Shown: piece after piece, positions 2,450 to 8,397 of the stretch
Layout: every line of letters starts with the position of its first letter
How positions within the stretch are numbered: position 1 is the first letter of the stretch
Source of the DNA: [Clostridium] clostridioforme AGR2157
GTDB taxonomy: Bacteria > Bacillota > Clostridia > Lachnospirales > Lachnospiraceae
Length of the DNA: 33,861 nucleotides
Direction: 5' to 3'
Assembly (NCBI RefSeq): GCF_000424325.1
Contig: NZ_AUJR01000051.1
Span: 1 to 33,861, forward strand
Notes under the pieces: model-generated
The model's database searches: none
What the model was told of the DNA's origin: nothing
Seen by the model: only the letters and a program-made list of their open reading frames with translations
Made by a program: the position numbers and the translations under genes

Positions 2450-3490
2450 TTACCCGATATATGCCTGAATCAGCCTGAACGTATTCTCTGCGCCGTCCCT
2501 ATGGCTTCTCTCATATCCATGGGATGCGTAGACGCCTGGCCCAATCAGGGCATGGCGCACGTCATGGCCTGCTTTCAGTGTAGTCTCAACATCAGAACCG
2601 TAATGCGGATACACATCCACGGCATAGCTGATTCCATGCTCCCTAGCCAGCTCCACCAGGCGGCACACGATATCGTAGTTATAGGGGCCTCCGCTGTCCT
2701 TTGCACAGATGGATACCTCACGCTCCGTACACTGAAGGCCCTCTCCCACACAGCCCATGTCCACGGACCAGGCTTCGGTTACGCCCTCCGGAACAGAGGC
2801 AGAGCCTCCGTGCCCCACTTCCTCATAGATGGTAAAATGGGCATATACCCGGCGCTCAGGGGTCACGGACTCATCCTTAAGATATTTGGCATATCCCATC
2901 AAAATGGCTGCGGACAGCTTATCGTCCAGAAAACGGCTCTTGATATAACCGGATGAAGTAATCCTTGTCCTGGCTTCAAAGCACACATAATCGCCAGGCA
3001 TGATGCCAAGTTTCACCGCGTCTTCCCTGCACTTAACATCCTCGTCCACCAGCACTTCCACCGTATCCCATGTGCGCTCGGTCTTCTCATAGCTGCCGTT
3101 TACATGTACGGAGGCATCCACCAGCTGGCAGGTTCCCTCATAGATTCCGTCCGCCTTGGTGACAATCCGCACATTCTCAGCCTCGGCATTAGCCGGCTTC
3201 ATGCCTCCTATATTGGTCAGCTTCAGCCTGCCGTTTTCCTTAATCCGGACAACCATGCCTCCCAGGGTATCGCAGTGGGCCTCCAGCAGGATTCCGTCTT
3301 CCTTATTCCTGCCGCCAAAATCAGCGATGACTCCTCCCTTTACCGTGCGCCTGGCCGGCACCCCCAATGCCTCCAATTCCTTTAACAGGTACTCCGTCAC
3401 TTCTCTGCCATAGCCGGAAGGACTGTCAATGGCCAACAGATTCTTCGCCTGCTCCATTATATAATCCACATACTTCCTACAGTCAGACAT
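2450..3490 (-). CDS. M42 family metallopeptidase (glutamyl/aminopeptidase, FrvX-like)
   Basis: The product is a 346-residue cytosolic di-metal aminopeptidase. M42 enzymes form tetrahedral complexes that trim peptides to amino acids. The full ligand set is visible: AHCDTLG (His and Asp), RFLDDK (bridging Asp), YEEVGHGG (general-base Glu and metal Glu), SVDMG (Asp) and the C-terminal SHGYERSH His. Length fits the family. The start is ATG 3490 because AAAGGAGA lies 6 nt upstream; the longer frame to 3532 has no ribosome site. It appears monocistronic, with an extended -10 promoter about 90 bases upstream and a terminator at 2376-2422. Substrate specificity cannot be read from the sequence. Confidence 0.9.
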   Translation of the reverse strand: MSDCRKYVDYIMEQAKNLLAIDSPSGYGREVTEYLLKELEALGVPARRTVKGGVIADFGGRNKEDGILLEAHCDTLGGMVVRIKENGRLKLTNIGGMKPANAEAENVRIVTKADGIYEGTCQLVDASVHVNGSYEKTERTWDTVEVLVDEDVKCREDAVKLGIMPGDYVCFEARTRITSSGYIKSRFLDDKLSAAILMGYAKYLKDESVTPERRVYAHFTIYEEVGHGGSASVPEGVTEAWSVDMGCVGEGLQCTEREVSICAKDSGGPYNYDIVCRLVELAREHGISYAVDVYPHYGSDVETTLKAGHDVRHALIGPGVYASHGYERSHRDGAENTFRLIQAYIG

Positions 3491-3578
3491 ATCCGTTCTC
3501 CTTTGTTGTTGGTATTTCTTACTCAGAGTCATTCTACCAGAAAAAAGGCGGTATTACAAGCAGGGTGTTCAGACCACT

Positions 3579-3587
3579 ATTATAACA
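3579..3587 (-). promoter_or_regulatory. Extended -10 promoter for the M42 peptidase gene
   Basis: On the minus strand TATAAT (3584-3579) is preceded by TGT, giving a TGnTATAAT extended -10. No good -35 hexamer is seen at 17 bases. The leader would be about 80 nt. Confidence 0.5.
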
Positions 3588-3674
3588 AATATCAAAATAT
3601 GGATTTATCAACATCACAAAGGGAAATCCTATATTATCAAATATCCTCATAATAAATTTATATCACTGGATATT

Positions 3675-6305
3675 CTATTTGCTTAATAACAGCGATAATA
3701 CCTTAGGTCTCGCTCCCCTTTCATATTTAAACTTTAATGCATGTCTAATTATCTCTGGAAGGTAATATTTATCATTATCAATTTTCAAATATCCCTCCTG
3801 TTTCATTAGTTTTTCGTCCGTTGCTGTTAATTCAAAAGTATCACTATGAAATGGAAGTATTCTTTTTTCTTCCGGAAGACTTTCCAATTTAGTGAAAATT
3901 GGTTTAAGAGCAGCTATTTCCTGTATAACCTCATTTAATTTTTTATTAGAGCAATTGGGGACTGCTTTCTTTATTTCTGCTGGCATAATATACCTATCTT
4001 CATATATTGGCCGGCCTGCATCTTCGGTCGCATATTGTAAAAACCTGATGATATCACGAGCCTGTAATTGTCCATTAAAATCTGATAATGCTGCCAAAAT
4101 CCATCTTGCTGAATATGCTTCATTTGATGTTATTTTCCCCAGCTTCACTCCCCATAGCTTAGTAAGATTCCTTTCAATCAATTCTTGAGACGCTACCTCA
4201 ACAGCAACCTCTTCTTGGTAAAATCCCGGGACCGCTTGATTTACAAGCCAGACTACCAATCTCAGTGCTTCCGTCCTGGACCACTTTAGTTCTACCGAAT
4301 TATAAAGCGTATTAAATTGTTCAAAATTAACCTCTATTGAATCTCTAGCCAAATCTTTTCTCAAAAATATAATTGCACCAATATTTTTATATTTCACTTT
4401 CCATTCATTTAACATATCCTGGCAGAGACCTAAAATAGCGTTTTTTTCTGTCTTAGATGATAATGTTTGAATAAAAATTTCTTCTAAACCATCAAATAAA
4501 AAAACCACCCTTTGAGCACGTTCTCCTAAAACGTTTTCTAAGGATTCTAAAGAATCAAATCCCCCTCCCAATGTCTCTAGCATTATCTGTTTCCAAAAAT
4601 CTAACCACTCTAAGGAATCATGCTCATTTCTATTAAAAGTTTTAATTTTATTGCTATTATCCAGCCAAACAGAGTTACTAATATTTCCGTTAACTCCACA
4701 TGCATTATACTTTTTAATAGCTGCTTGTAGTATATCCTTAAAACCACTGGCATTGGAAGAGGCTAAGACAGGAATGAAAAATGTCCTTGGTTCTTTTATC
4801 TCTTTATTGTTTTCCATCTTCACTATAAAAGTTTCCCAATATTTATTTCTCAGCATTTCTCTATATAAAAATGTCTTACCTGATCCTTTAGCTCCCATAA
4901 TAACTGTATGAGGAATATTAACCCTAAATTTTTTTATTAAATTATTAATAGGAGCTGTCATTAGTATGTTAAATTCAACATTCCCTTCTGCATTTATTTG
5001 AGTATCTGCTAATCGATTAATCTTTCTTATAACTTCCTCTCTTCTATTAACAGATGTTGTTAAGTTCTTTTCTTTTTGGACAACATAATTATCCTTGACT
5101 AGTGAATAAATATTCTTATAAAATGCACATCCATCTAAATTTTTGATAATCTGTCTTAAGGAACCTAGATGCAACAACTCACTAGCAAATGGAAGTTCAG
5201 TTACAAGATTATCAATTAAGGATTCTTCCTTCTCGTCTACCTCGTCATATAAAGAGACCAATCCACTAACAATATCCAAAGTTTGTAATCCATCCGGAAT
5301 CATTGTCATAAAAATTTCAGGAATTAGTGTACTCTCATTTATAGGCAGACCTTTATTTAACTCTTGTATCAATAATTCTGTTCCCTTAACCGACTGATAC
5401 GATGTAGATGTTACCAAATATTTTTTCACCCTAGGATCGAATAATAACGGAGCTGAAAATTCGCTTACGCCAGCTCTTAAATCAACCAGTACAGCCGATA
5501 CATTTAACCGTTTTCCTAACATTGACAAAATCTCTGCCAAAATAAACTTCTTATTATAACTGACAACTATACTCTCCGGACTGGCATACATATCCAATAA
5601 CTGTTCGATATATCGATAAGTAGGTAAAACAAAATGTTCAACAACTTTAACATCTGTCTCAACCTGAAAAGTCATCTCGCTTACTTTATCTGCCACTAAT
5701 CCAACTATCTCTTCGATTCTATCCATTCCCTGTGTTATTTCCAATAAATCCAAATAGCTAAAAGAACACTGCCCATCCTTGGCCGTAAGCCAGGTGATTC
5801 CCGGGGCTTCTATATCTGAATCCACAATCAAAAGTCTGCTGGTCTCTTTAACATCTGCAAGCACTGACCATGCTTTTACAAAAGCAAGAAGTGATAAAGT
5901 CCTACCTACTCCTCCCTTATATGAATGAAATGCTATAACTGGACACCCAGGAAGACTTTCTTGAATCATATCCTCATAATAGGCAGATTTCTTATATAAT
6001 ACATTTCTAAATAATGGCACTATCTGCTTGTCATGTTCTTTTTCTTCCCCAATCTCATACGTTACTGTTAAATATGCTTCTTTTCCCAATTCAAGATAAA
6101 GTTTCTGATCTTTATGAATATATTTATACTCAAAAATATCTGCCAAATTTTCTCCAACTCTATTTATATTATCTAAAGATTTTACATAAATGTAAATATC
6201 AGAAGAATAAATTTCTGCATCCAAAATATCTTTATCCCATCTATCCCGGTTTAGAAACAAATGTCGCTCTACATCTTTCCATGTATAAAATATCACTCTT
6301 CTCAC
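3675..6305 (-). CDS. Dual-ATPase protein: ParA/MinD-type KGGVGR domain plus STAND/AAA-like P-loop domain
   Basis: This 876-residue protein has several regions. Residues 1-110 are an unrecognised N-terminal domain. Residues 120-400 are a SIMIBI (ParA/MinD) ATPase: deviant Walker A KGGVGRT at 130-136, DSDIEAPG at 162-169, VLVDLRAG at 272-279. Residues 450-700 form a second P-loop NTPase: Walker A GAKGSGKT at 471-478, Walker B VFLFDGLEEI at 601-610, then IIFLRKD at about 645. A helical region and a winged-helix-like C-terminus follow. The GTG start overlaps the upstream HEPN-like stop (GTGA), with GAGGAAGG as ribosome site, so the two are translationally coupled. The gene is far richer in A+T than its neighbours, a sign of transfer. 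KGGVGR-variant ATPases and STAND NTPases beside HEPN proteins are typical of phage-defence loci; the defence role is inference. I do not recognise a named system. Confidence 0.75.
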   Translation of the reverse strand: MRRVIFYTWKDVERHLFLNRDRWDKDILDAEIYSSDIYIYVKSLDNINRVGENLADIFEYKYIHKDQKLYLELGKEAYLTVTYEIGEEKEHDKQIVPLFRNVLYKKSAYYEDMIQESLPGCPVIAFHSYKGGVGRTLSLLAFVKAWSVLADVKETSRLLIVDSDIEAPGITWLTAKDGQCSFSYLDLLEITQGMDRIEEIVGLVADKVSEMTFQVETDVKVVEHFVLPTYRYIEQLLDMYASPESIVVSYNKKFILAEILSMLGKRLNVSAVLVDLRAGVSEFSAPLLFDPRVKKYLVTSTSYQSVKGTELLIQELNKGLPINESTLIPEIFMTMIPDGLQTLDIVSGLVSLYDEVDEKEESLIDNLVTELPFASELLHLGSLRQIIKNLDGCAFYKNIYSLVKDNYVVQKEKNLTTSVNRREEVIRKINRLADTQINAEGNVEFNILMTAPINNLIKKFRVNIPHTVIMGAKGSGKTFLYREMLRNKYWETFIVKMENNKEIKEPRTFFIPVLASSNASGFKDILQAAIKKYNACGVNGNISNSVWLDNSNKIKTFNRNEHDSLEWLDFWKQIMLETLGGGFDSLESLENVLGERAQRVVFLFDGLEEIFIQTLSSKTEKNAILGLCQDMLNEWKVKYKNIGAIIFLRKDLARDSIEVNFEQFNTLYNSVELKWSRTEALRLVVWLVNQAVPGFYQEEVAVEVASQELIERNLTKLWGVKLGKITSNEAYSARWILAALSDFNGQLQARDIIRFLQYATEDAGRPIYEDRYIMPAEIKKAVPNCSNKKLNEVIQEIAALKPIFTKLESLPEEKRILPFHSDTFELTATDEKLMKQEGYLKIDNDKYYLPEIIRHALKFKYERGARPKVLSLLLSK

Positions 6306-6739
6306 ATCCCTTCCTCAATCCAGTCTGCAATTTTTTTTAGCTCAATTTCATATTTATCTTCTTTTACTCTATCCTTATCCTTTACTCTTATGCAATATCT
6401 ACATAATTGATGGTAATTTTCGGATGTTATGCTATCTTGATGTGCTGTAATCAATTGAGGAAATTTGAATGTTCCTAATTGTCCTAACTCTTTTAATATC
6501 TTTTCCAGATTATGACTTTTCAAAACATCTCTTCTCTTGTCTTTTTCGTTTCCTATTATCTTTTCTGGATTTTCCTCATGCCATTTATCCAACAGCAAAT
6601 ATTTCAATCCACACTCAACGCAATAAGAGAGTAGTAACCGTTTACTGTTTATGCTTGCATTTGTTTCCATGAGTTTATAGTAGGCTGAGTAATGTTTCTT
6701 ATATCCTTGCCTGTAATCTCTTTTATCTGCCAGTATCAC
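6302..6739 (-). CDS. HEPN-like small protein, partner of the dual ATPase
   Basis: It is 145 residues, all helical in character. A CVECGLKYLLL helix is followed by KSHNLEKILKEL, the pattern of many HEPN proteins. An R-x5-H pair (RDVLKSH, about residues 69-75) could be an RX4-6H ribonuclease motif, although in classical HEPN nucleases that motif lies in the last helix, so catalysis is uncertain. Start: GTG 6739, with GGAGGAGGA 6-7 nt upstream. Its stop overlaps the start of the ATPase gene by 4 nt, which implies a stoichiometric pair. It is AT-rich like its partner and is first in the islet. Possible roles are toxin or RNase effector with the ATPase as sensor, or adaptor; neither is proved. Confidence 0.65.
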   Translation of the reverse strand: MILADKRDYRQGYKKHYSAYYKLMETNASINSKRLLLSYCVECGLKYLLLDKWHEENPEKIIGNEKDKRRDVLKSHNLEKILKELGQLGTFKFPQLITAHQDSITSENYHQLCRYCIRVKDKDRVKEDKYEIELKKIADWIEEGM

Positions 6740-6777
6740 TTACTGTCCTCCTCCAGATAATTCTTAACATTGTCTTA

Positions 6778-6806
6778 AGTATACAATAAATGGTTTAAAA
6801 AAGAAA
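6778..6806 (-). promoter_or_regulatory. Weak candidate promoter for the HEPN-ATPase pair
   Basis: On the minus strand TATACT (6783-6778) lies 17 bases downstream of TTTCTT (6806-6801). The -10 is good and the -35 poor. Transcription would start about 30 nt before GTG 6739. Confidence 0.35.
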
Positions 6807-6831
6807 GGCAAAATCTCTAATGATAACAAAG

Positions 6832-6880
6832 AGACGTGTTCTTGCATAACTTAAACATAAAGTTATACAATAACACGTCT
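6832..6880. repeat. Nested inverted repeat at the islet edge, possible terminator of the M32 gene
   Basis: Outer arms AGACGTGTT (6832-6840) / AACACGTCT (6872-6880) enclose inner arms ATAACTT (6846-6852) / AAGTTAT (6860-6866). It lies just past the M32 stop at 6904, so it may terminate that gene, though the T run after the stem on the minus strand is weak. It also marks the edge of the AT-rich islet. Confidence 0.6.
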
Positions 6881-6903
6881 TTACACTTCTGGCAGTCCAC
6901 CTT

Positions 6904-8397
6904 CTACAGTCCATATACAGTGGAATACTTTTCCTTCAGATACCTGACATAATATTCCGGATTAAAATCCTCCCCGGTCACATCCTTCAGTATCTGACGG
7001 CTGTCTTTTAACTTTCCATACTGATGGATGTGTTCCCTAAGATAATCCCGTATCACATCCACCCTGCCTTCCTTAAGCAGGCCGTCAAAATCCATGATTT
7101 CCTTCATATGATAATATAACTGGGCTCCAAAAGCGCTGCCCAGGGCATAGGACGGAAAATATCCAAAGGAGCCCTGGGACCAGTGGATGTCCTGGAGCAC
7201 TCCCTCTGCCGGGTTCTCCGGGCGAACGCCCAGATACTCCTCATATTTATCAGCCCAGAGCTGCGGCAGTTTCTCCACATCCAAATCTTCCTCTATCAGC
7301 ATCTTCTCAATCTCATAACGAATCAGCACATGGAGACTGTAGCTCAGTTCGTCGGCCTCCGTGCGGATTAAGCCCGGAGTAACTTTGTTGACCGCCTCCA
7401 CGAACCGGTCCAGTTCCACCTTTCCCAACTGTTCCGGAAACATCTCCTGCACCCTGGCATATATGGGAACCCAGAAGGAACGGCTGCGCCCAATGATGTT
7501 CTCAAAAAACCGTGACTGGGATTCATGCATGCCCATGCTGGCCCCCTGACCCACAGGCGTCAAAGTCAGATCATCCCGTATGCCCAGCTCATAGATGGCA
7601 TGACCGGCCTCATGGATGACAGAAAACATGGAACTGTCCACACAGTCCGTATAATGGGTGGTGATACGCACATCCTTGTTGTGAAGGTTGGTGGTAAAAG
7701 GATGGGCGCTGACCGCCATAACGCCCCGGTCAAAGTCAAATCCCACATATTCCGCCAAGAACCTCCCCAGCTCCTCCTGCTTTTCCTCCGGGTAATCGCC
7801 CTTTAAGAAAGAATCCTCAATCTTCTTTCCATCTTCCATCACCTTCTTAAGAAACGGCACCAGCTCTTTTTTCAGTAAGCCGAAAAACCGGTCCAGGTTC
7901 TCCATGGAAAAACCCTTCTCATAGTCATCCAGCATCACATCGTACAGCTTCTTTCCATCCTTTGCCCTGTAACCCGCAAACTTCTTCTGGAATCCGATGA
8001 CCTTCTTTAGCGTGGGGGCAAACGCCTCAAAATCCTGGTCCTTTTTTGCCCCGGCCCAAACGCTGGTAGCCCTGGCCGTGAGACGGGCGAATTCCTGGTA
8101 TTCATCCTGGGGAATGGGGCAGATATGCTCCCTCTCTTCCAGCAGCTCCCTTACATTGGCAGCCTCTGCCCCGGTCAGGCTTTTGTCAGCCTGGCATTCC
8201 TCCAGCAGTTTCTTCATCTCATCGCAGGTCACTGCCTGAAAATACTCCCCTGACAGGACCCCGATTACCTTGGAGGTAAGCTCTCCCGCTTCCCTGGGAG
8301 CCAGTGTCTCGTTGTCCCACTCGAACAGCGTCATGGCTGTCTTGATAGCCATGGCCTTATCCATGTATGTCTTTAACTCATCGTACGCTTTGCTCAT
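6904..8397 (-). CDS. M32 family carboxypeptidase (carboxypeptidase Taq type)
   Basis: At 497 residues it has the usual M32 length. The zinc motif HEAGH is at 262-266 and the third-ligand region MHESQSRFFEN follows at 290-300 (Glu292); both are diagnostic of thermostable carboxypeptidase 1. These cytosolic enzymes remove C-terminal residues from peptides and tolerate most side chains except Pro. Start: ATG 8397 with GGAG 7 nt upstream. It appears monocistronic. With the M42 enzyme it suggests active intracellular peptide recycling, the two being separated only by the inserted AT-rich islet. Confidence 0.93.
   Translation of the reverse strand: MSKAYDELKTYMDKAMAIKTAMTLFEWDNETLAPREAGELTSKVIGVLSGEYFQAVTCDEMKKLLEECQADKSLTGAEAANVRELLEEREHICPIPQDEYQEFARLTARATSVWAGAKKDQDFEAFAPTLKKVIGFQKKFAGYRAKDGKKLYDVMLDDYEKGFSMENLDRFFGLLKKELVPFLKKVMEDGKKIEDSFLKGDYPEEKQEELGRFLAEYVGFDFDRGVMAVSAHPFTTNLHNKDVRITTHYTDCVDSSMFSVIHEAGHAIYELGIRDDLTLTPVGQGASMGMHESQSRFFENIIGRSRSFWVPIYARVQEMFPEQLGKVELDRFVEAVNKVTPGLIRTEADELSYSLHVLIRYEIEKMLIEEDLDVEKLPQLWADKYEEYLGVRPENPAEGVLQDIHWSQGSFGYFPSYALGSAFGAQLYYHMKEIMDFDGLLKEGRVDVIRDYLREHIHQYGKLKDSRQILKDVTGEDFNPEYYVRYLKEKYSTVYGL

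Follow-up and report, generated by a model that had tools for sequence, protein, structure and literature searches.

The closest described relative of the locus analysed here is PDC-M28, an uncharacterised PADLOC candidate comprising a HEPN-like protein (A), a KGGVGR ATPase (B) and a Sll1717-type ATPase (C), with B and C encoded by separate genes. In a dyad predicted in 2013 to be a toxin-antitoxin, a MAE_18760-family HEPN gene is likewise paired with a gene for a SIMIBI ParA-like (ParA/Soj) ATPase (PMC3710099), and in MNT-HEPN toxin-antitoxins the regulator is a nucleotidyltransferase. Here we describe a gene pair in a stretch of 33,861 nucleotides (nt) from [Clostridium] clostridioforme AGR2157 (contig NZ_AUJR01000051.1; the whole stretch is hereafter called the window), in which the gene for a 145-residue predicted HEPN-fold protein overlaps by 4 nt with that for an 876-residue protein carrying both ATPase types. 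The same three parts thus occur in the same order as in PDC-M28, with B and C in one chain rather than in separate genes. The pair is real and mobile and is most likely a conflict module; our preferred reading, to which we assign a probability of roughly 0.55, is a self-contained, horizontally mobile module that acts as an abortive-infection anti-phage system.

Differences from the other systems are also apparent. As described in the 2013 paper, MAE_18760-family HEPN proteins keep the Rx4-6H motif (PMC3710099), which is not conserved in the window family, and the window pair has a second ATPase beyond that dyad; compared with MNT-HEPN, a dual ATPase takes the place of the nucleotidyltransferase. 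DS-41, an Escherichia coli defence system presented as validated in the DefensePredictor paper (PMC13092281), is tied to the pair by name only, via the NCBIfam model NF053860 ("DS41_1_antiphage"). This model gave weak matches to Sll1717-family proteins from relatives that are split or fused in another way (best 4.4e-11, far below its 370-bit cut-off) and did not match the window's large protein at E 1.

With the PDC-M28 models, the window proteins gave a weak match to A (0.0012, residues 6-68) and stronger ones to B (7.5e-16, 204 of 438 positions) and C (5.4e-12, 205 of 480). In a tree of the KGGVGR domain (27 chosen rows), the window clade (16 rows) was placed apart from the 11 PDC-M28-type rows (9 split, 2 fused) by 100/100 branches, and the fused or split label changes at least twice on this tree. 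The HEPN profiles of the two sides did not match each other at E 1e-3, while the window small protein against the split-side profile gave 0.019, with an hhalign probability of 18.5. Because of the separate clade and the nonmatching HEPN profiles, we treat the pair as a sister lineage of PDC-M28 and not as a member; by these sequence comparisons, the window proteins represent a separate, deeply diverged, fused clade beside that candidate. The system had been called undescribed in an initial annotation of the window, which applies only in part, since PDC-M28 already contains split relatives. In the literature collection searched, no paper named PDC-M28 or Sll1717, and KGGVGR occurred only in one unrelated paper.

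Split A-B-C loci are also found in the same family (L055, L057, L058, L059, L061). Among the proteins tested, the PADLOC B and C models cover most of L055 B and C, L059 C and L060 B; the L055 A protein aligned with M28A over 45 of 138 positions only. Split modules are carried by plasmids of Calothrix (where gene A bears the annotation "HEPN domain protein" and a type III restriction gene lies alongside), Enterobacter (beside an integrase) and Burkholderia, with gene A in the latter two assigned by position only. Two fused KGGVGR-Sll1717 proteins, one at L054:12126-14918 and one on a Nostoc plasmid (L157:5247-8359) with a small gene upstream and hsdR alongside, fall on the PDC-M28 side of the tree.

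The two genes, their overlap and the motifs KGGVGRT (residues 130-136), GAKGSGKT (471-478) and FDGLEEI (604-610) are all present as first annotated, as is the AT-rich setting: the pair has a GC content of 33.3% against 49.0% in its flanks, which encode an M42 aminopeptidase (2450-3532) and an M32 carboxypeptidase (6904-8397). Relatives were collected through the large gene by a profile search with one genome per species; retaining the best 80 of 86 matches gave 79 related loci. In 70 of these a HEPN gene lies directly upstream of the large gene, mostly overlapping it or within ~35 nt. Nine gave no HEPN profile match (L090, L101, L111, L127, L129, L137, L138, L140, L141); L101 is cut by a contig end and most of the others are degraded. 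The ratio of nonsynonymous to synonymous substitution rates (dN/dS) was ~0.06-0.12 in seven comparisons of the large gene; for the small gene it could be computed in six of seven and was 0-0.16. The full-length relatives of both genes, the large-gene dN/dS and the recurrence at 70 of 79 loci together place the pair beyond chance.

The first ATPase of the large protein had been annotated as ParA/MinD-like (SIMIBI), in agreement with both its predicted fold and its score above the cut-off of the KGGVGR-variant AAA ATPase model NF047398. The second had been called STAND/AAA-like; it is indeed a P-loop ATPase, assigned to the Sll1717 family by NF047389 at 76.6 bits, just above the cut-off of 75 (its relative in L108 reached 63.4). 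STAND membership is at most putative, NACHT (18 bits; cut-off 26.7), nSTAND3 (16.5; 27.2) and AAA_16 (16.5; 32.6) all scoring below the Pfam threshold. A winged-helix-like C-terminus was not established, the structure model of the large protein being moderate (mean pLDDT 63, pTM 0.44) and its fold matches, among the matches listed, covering residues 119-412. Sequence-only searches of the Protein Data Bank (PDB) returned only ribosomal-protein noise with the single large-protein sequence and weak MinD/ParA matches with its profile. The N-terminal ~110 residues had no Pfam or NCBIfam match above cut-off, and searches of the large protein with Pfam, NCBIfam and PADLOC showed neither a nuclease nor any other effector domain.

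For the small protein, the predicted fold is the helical bundle of the HEPN superfamily, in line with the initial annotation; a sequence-only PDB search with its profile gave two implausible matches. In an alignment of 58 proteins of 125-185 aa from the window and the 79 loci, E42 and K46, i.e., the Ex3[K/R] element described as a secondary HEPN motif (PMC3710099), and R114 are each present in 58/58; Ex3K, H76 and R114-Y115 are kept among the homologues. An Rx4-6H string occurs somewhere in 36/58, with 27/58 placing the R before the N-terminal H16. Across the order, a match to the HEPN profile was present in 4 of 392 genomes.

Feature coordinates are compiled in Table 1.

Table 1. Features of the HEPN/dual-ATPase islet, in window coordinates.
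Feature	Position	Strand	Basis or remark
HEPN-fold protein gene, 145 aa, GTG start	6302..6739	(-)	Open reading frame (ORF); proposed toxic effector
Fused dual-ATPase gene, 876 aa, GTG start	3675..6305	(-)	ORF, NF047398 and NF047389 above curated cut-offs; proposed sensor/controller
N-terminal ~110 residues of large protein	5976..6305	(-)	W9, D11, W23 kept in ≥95% of 67 homologues
KGGVGR-variant ParA/MinD-like ATPase domain, residues 121-316 of large protein	5358..5945	(-)	
Sll1717-family P-loop ATPase domain, residues 465-812, GAKGSGKT and DGLEE	3870..4913	(-)	NF047389; PADLOC PDC-M28C 5.4e-12
C-terminal tail of large protein, residues 813-876	3678..3869	(-)	Sequence basis alone
Islet	3568..6900	.	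Missing at the same place in close relative G012 (blastn of window vs L031)
Inverted repeat, 21-nt arms	6832..6880	.	Inside islet, upstream of HEPN gene

The inverted repeat, between the M32 and HEPN genes, has arms that are 90% complementary and forms a strong hairpin not scored as a terminator; a 166-nt region containing it had a folding z of -3.27. An Rfam scan of 3300-7100 gave no match, a terminator scan gave 0 terminators, and a promoter scan gave 20 against 15.7 (sd 3.5) expected.

Several lines of evidence address mobility. In genome G012 of the same genus, the peptidase genes are adjacent: homology with the window breaks off after 3567 and picks up again at 6901, and ~18 nt of unrelated sequence take the place of the 3.3-kb islet. 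The M32 gene at this empty site (L031) reads in two overlapping frames, reflecting a real frameshift or an assembly error. In G003 the two peptidase genes also lie close together without the pair, while G004 carries it at the same place (large protein 97.8% and small protein 100% identical). The islet is thus an insertion, or the product of an old loss elsewhere. Between G000 and G004, synonymous divergence (dS) is 0.093-0.113 for the two genes of the pair, 0.127 for M42 and 0.281 for M32; being close to the M42 flank and below M32, these values indicate that the pair was probably present before the species split, with later exchange possible. A full-length large gene was found in 2 of 17 genomes sampled from the genus and any match in 4 of 17; any match was found in 16 of 397 genomes of the family and 17 of 398 of the phylum, four of the latter (the window's genome included) with a complete or nearly complete fused gene.

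The hosts of the 79 loci are mostly Lachnospiraceae, together with Tumebacillus, Domibacillus, Treponema, Actinospica and a Bacteroidales metagenome-assembled genome. The 80 loci form 56 context clusters (at least 1 of 6 neighbours shared at 45% identity); the clade has no single conserved housekeeping site for the pair. Islet GC is below that of the flanks in 75 of the 76 loci with enough flank (mean 0.395 vs 0.496). In three loci from different species (L071, L079, L083), the islets are 99.4-99.8% identical over 3,071 bp against an average of 80-85% in alignable flanks, from which we conclude recent transfer as a unit; L071 and L083 share another cargo stretch (1,786 bp, 96.8% identical). 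In some genomes the pair is present two or three times at separate sites (L074/L112/L137 in DKVC01; L107/L089 in CANREH01); these copies are divergent, and some have decayed. Targeting of tRNA genes was ruled out, a tRNA lying within 1 kb of the islet in only 2 of 80 loci.

Broken copies suggest which gene is costly. Each locus was read by pieces, with automatic labels then corrected by hand: the window copy (W), L063, L070, L072, L075, L078 and L139, automatically labelled "large gene broken, st1", have full ORFs and were counted with an intact large gene; L085 has a full HEPN ORF; L122 and L127 were too divergent to judge; L131, automatically labelled intact, has a frameshift; contig ends truncate L120 and L124 and, on the HEPN side, L092, L101 and L118. 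In 7 loci only the HEPN gene is broken, through an insertion and stops (L073), a missing front part (L082, L099), reduction to the tail (L111) or a frameshift (L131; L079, where the rest of the copy is 99.8% identical to that of L083), with L076 as the seventh. Both genes are broken in 9 (L090, L121, L125, L126, L129, L137, L138, L140, L141), and away from contig ends the large gene alone is broken in none, despite six times the length; equal damage per base would predict the opposite asymmetry. These counts are most simply read as HEPN doing harm when the large protein is missing, which suggests, as judged from sequence decay, a costly HEPN effector with the ATPase protein as its controller. 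Of the initial proposal, a sensor with an effector or antitoxin, an effector-plus-controller arrangement is thereby favoured, given the pairing and the direction of decay.

We propose that the HEPN protein would serve as a growth-stopping effector, and that the dual-ATPase protein, whose gene follows directly downstream with the same orientation, would bind it, keep it inactive and act as the trigger. The ParA/MinD-type nucleotide switch and the Sll1717-type P-loop ATPase would sense an infection cue, presumably from phage, and change nucleotide state; a HEPN dimer would thus be released or assembled, and would then bind or cut RNA. A defence role is plausible but unproven, and several observations weigh against the reading proposed here. 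PADLOC families were not enriched among 140 near-neighbour proteins (drawn at random from 262, i.e., 280 minus near-copies and those of at least 1,200 aa) over 135 far ones (from 237, left of 240), and the family taken together showed no defence-island enrichment; at E 1e-20 the near set had 10 families (12 member matches) and the far set 35 (25 listed). The near-neighbour Pfam families (25 of 130 listed) are largely metabolic, transport and regulatory, with two phage integrases and two AAA-ATPase_like, and general genome context alone lends no support to defence. Homologues of the fused protein were found neither by plasmid tblastn nor in IMG/VR, and phages gave one weak ParA match. For the fold, the best structural Z is 9.1, where the tool's safe level for helical bundles is ~13, and Foldseek returned nothing at E 0.001 and HEPN entries only at E >1. 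The canonical Rx4-6H RNase motif is not conserved, a His at the right spacing after R114 occurring in 2/58 homologues (L075, L139), such that RNase activity is not assured. The decay asymmetry itself comprises few events, in many draft assemblies, with hand corrections and in loci found via the large gene.

The same asymmetry would fit an addiction module, with HEPN as toxin and the ATPase protein as antitoxin, selected for maintenance of itself or of its cassette without phage sensing. Several companions in the cassette arrays (see below) are of toxin-antitoxin types, and the HEPN-ParA/Soj dyad was itself put forward as one (PMC3710099). However, 876 residues with two conserved ATPase sites are far more than a mere antitoxin needs, and the sensor-like architecture suggests a signal; we thus regard pure addiction as rather unlikely, with the proviso that addiction and defence roles overlap in practice. 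The lack of a conserved Rx4-6H motif, with Ex3K, H76 and R114-Y115 retained, would also suit a non-catalytic HEPN partner (adaptor, antitoxin, or RNA- or nucleotide-binding subunit) with effector activity in the large protein, and the structural neighbours of the small protein include HEPN domains of unproven catalysis, e.g., that of sacsin. This is improbable given that HEPN loss with retention of the large gene is seen in 7 loci and the reverse never away from contig ends, and that the large protein matched no effector domain. A host housekeeping or regulatory pair, e.g., for partition-like positioning or stress signalling, would account for the ParA/MinD-like domain and the ordinary genes generally found nearby; we consider it very improbable in view of the rarity of the full-length gene in the genus, the empty site in a close relative, the diversity of contexts, the AT-richness and the recent transfer.

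Some copies of the pair lie in cassette arrays, alongside toxin-antitoxin and defence-like units. Repeats between the 500-bp flanks (blastn E <0.01) were detected at 16 of 72 islets vs 12 of 142 random stretches from the same loci, with direct repeats of 90-354 bp at eight islets (lengths taken for islets only). In L069, L071, L075, L079 and L083, we take the repeat to be the 3' end of an spmA-like gene, itself with a sub-threshold Pfam match to Gate only. Cargo is stacked at this 3' end in L071:3556-14577, L079:1624-16000, L073, L081, L083, L075, L069 and L068, and 3'-end copies (four in L079; five, one partial, in L071) separate different units. Across these and sister arrays, the cargo includes HipA_C and HIRAN proteins (PDC-M03A 4e-128, PDC-M03B 7.8e-99), a nucleotidyltransferase with HEPN (MNT-HEPN), BrnT, an AbiLi-like AAA_21 protein and an AAA-PDDEXK protein; the remaining cargo proteins tested gave no match. 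No recombinase was identified among the cargo tested, and Pfam and PADLOC (L071) and PDB (both) gave no support to a 360-aa protein of L071 and a 326-aa protein of L079 as tyrosine-recombinase relatives.

Most extra 3'-end copies are immediately preceded by TTCGTGTCAYTAACTTGACACAAGG or a close variant of it, an inverted repeat of the form GTGTCA-N6-TGACAC that looks, from its sequence and placement, like a recombination site. It or a one-base variant occurs at L071:9153, 12721 and 14336, L079:5177, 9070 and 12721, L083:12721, L070:12719 and L072:12716; in L070 and L072 it ends the cassette with no spmA-like copy detected after it. Of 79 islets, 8 have the motif in the 700 bp that follow downstream; among 200 family genomes, 1 contains it (at most 2 mismatches), and an exact search found it in no IMG/VR contig. 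Variants also stand beside other genes in L177 and L172 (genome G736) and L154 (genome G163); one L177 ORF presumably resembles SIR2 proteins and one L154 ORF a DUF2971 protein. Since the window's own islet has neither a motif of this type nor flanking repeats, the arrays explain the spread of one lineage only. A literature search on spmA-like insertion sites gave no mention of spmA among the best 10 of 77 papers. It is possible, and we suggest it tentatively, that the pair founds a new class among HEPN immune or addiction modules, with one ParA/MinD-Sll1717 chain holding and firing a HEPN protein without the canonical RNase motif, one lineage being cargo of an unrecognised spmA-like cassette system of toxin-antitoxin and defence units that mostly end in the inverted repeat followed by a 3'-end copy.

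Ultimately, the pair offers a delimited 3-kb module that would place one HEPN protein under the control of two unrelated ATPase types, and whose natural broken copies point to the toxic gene. Since Pseudomonadota, cyanobacteria, Bacillota and others also carry related parts, either split or fused, a single mechanism worked out here would help to explain PDC-M28. Searches built on defence islands could miss the pair, as many copies stand among ordinary genes, and the spmA-like cassette arrays may be a new means of spread for such modules among gut Lachnospiraceae.

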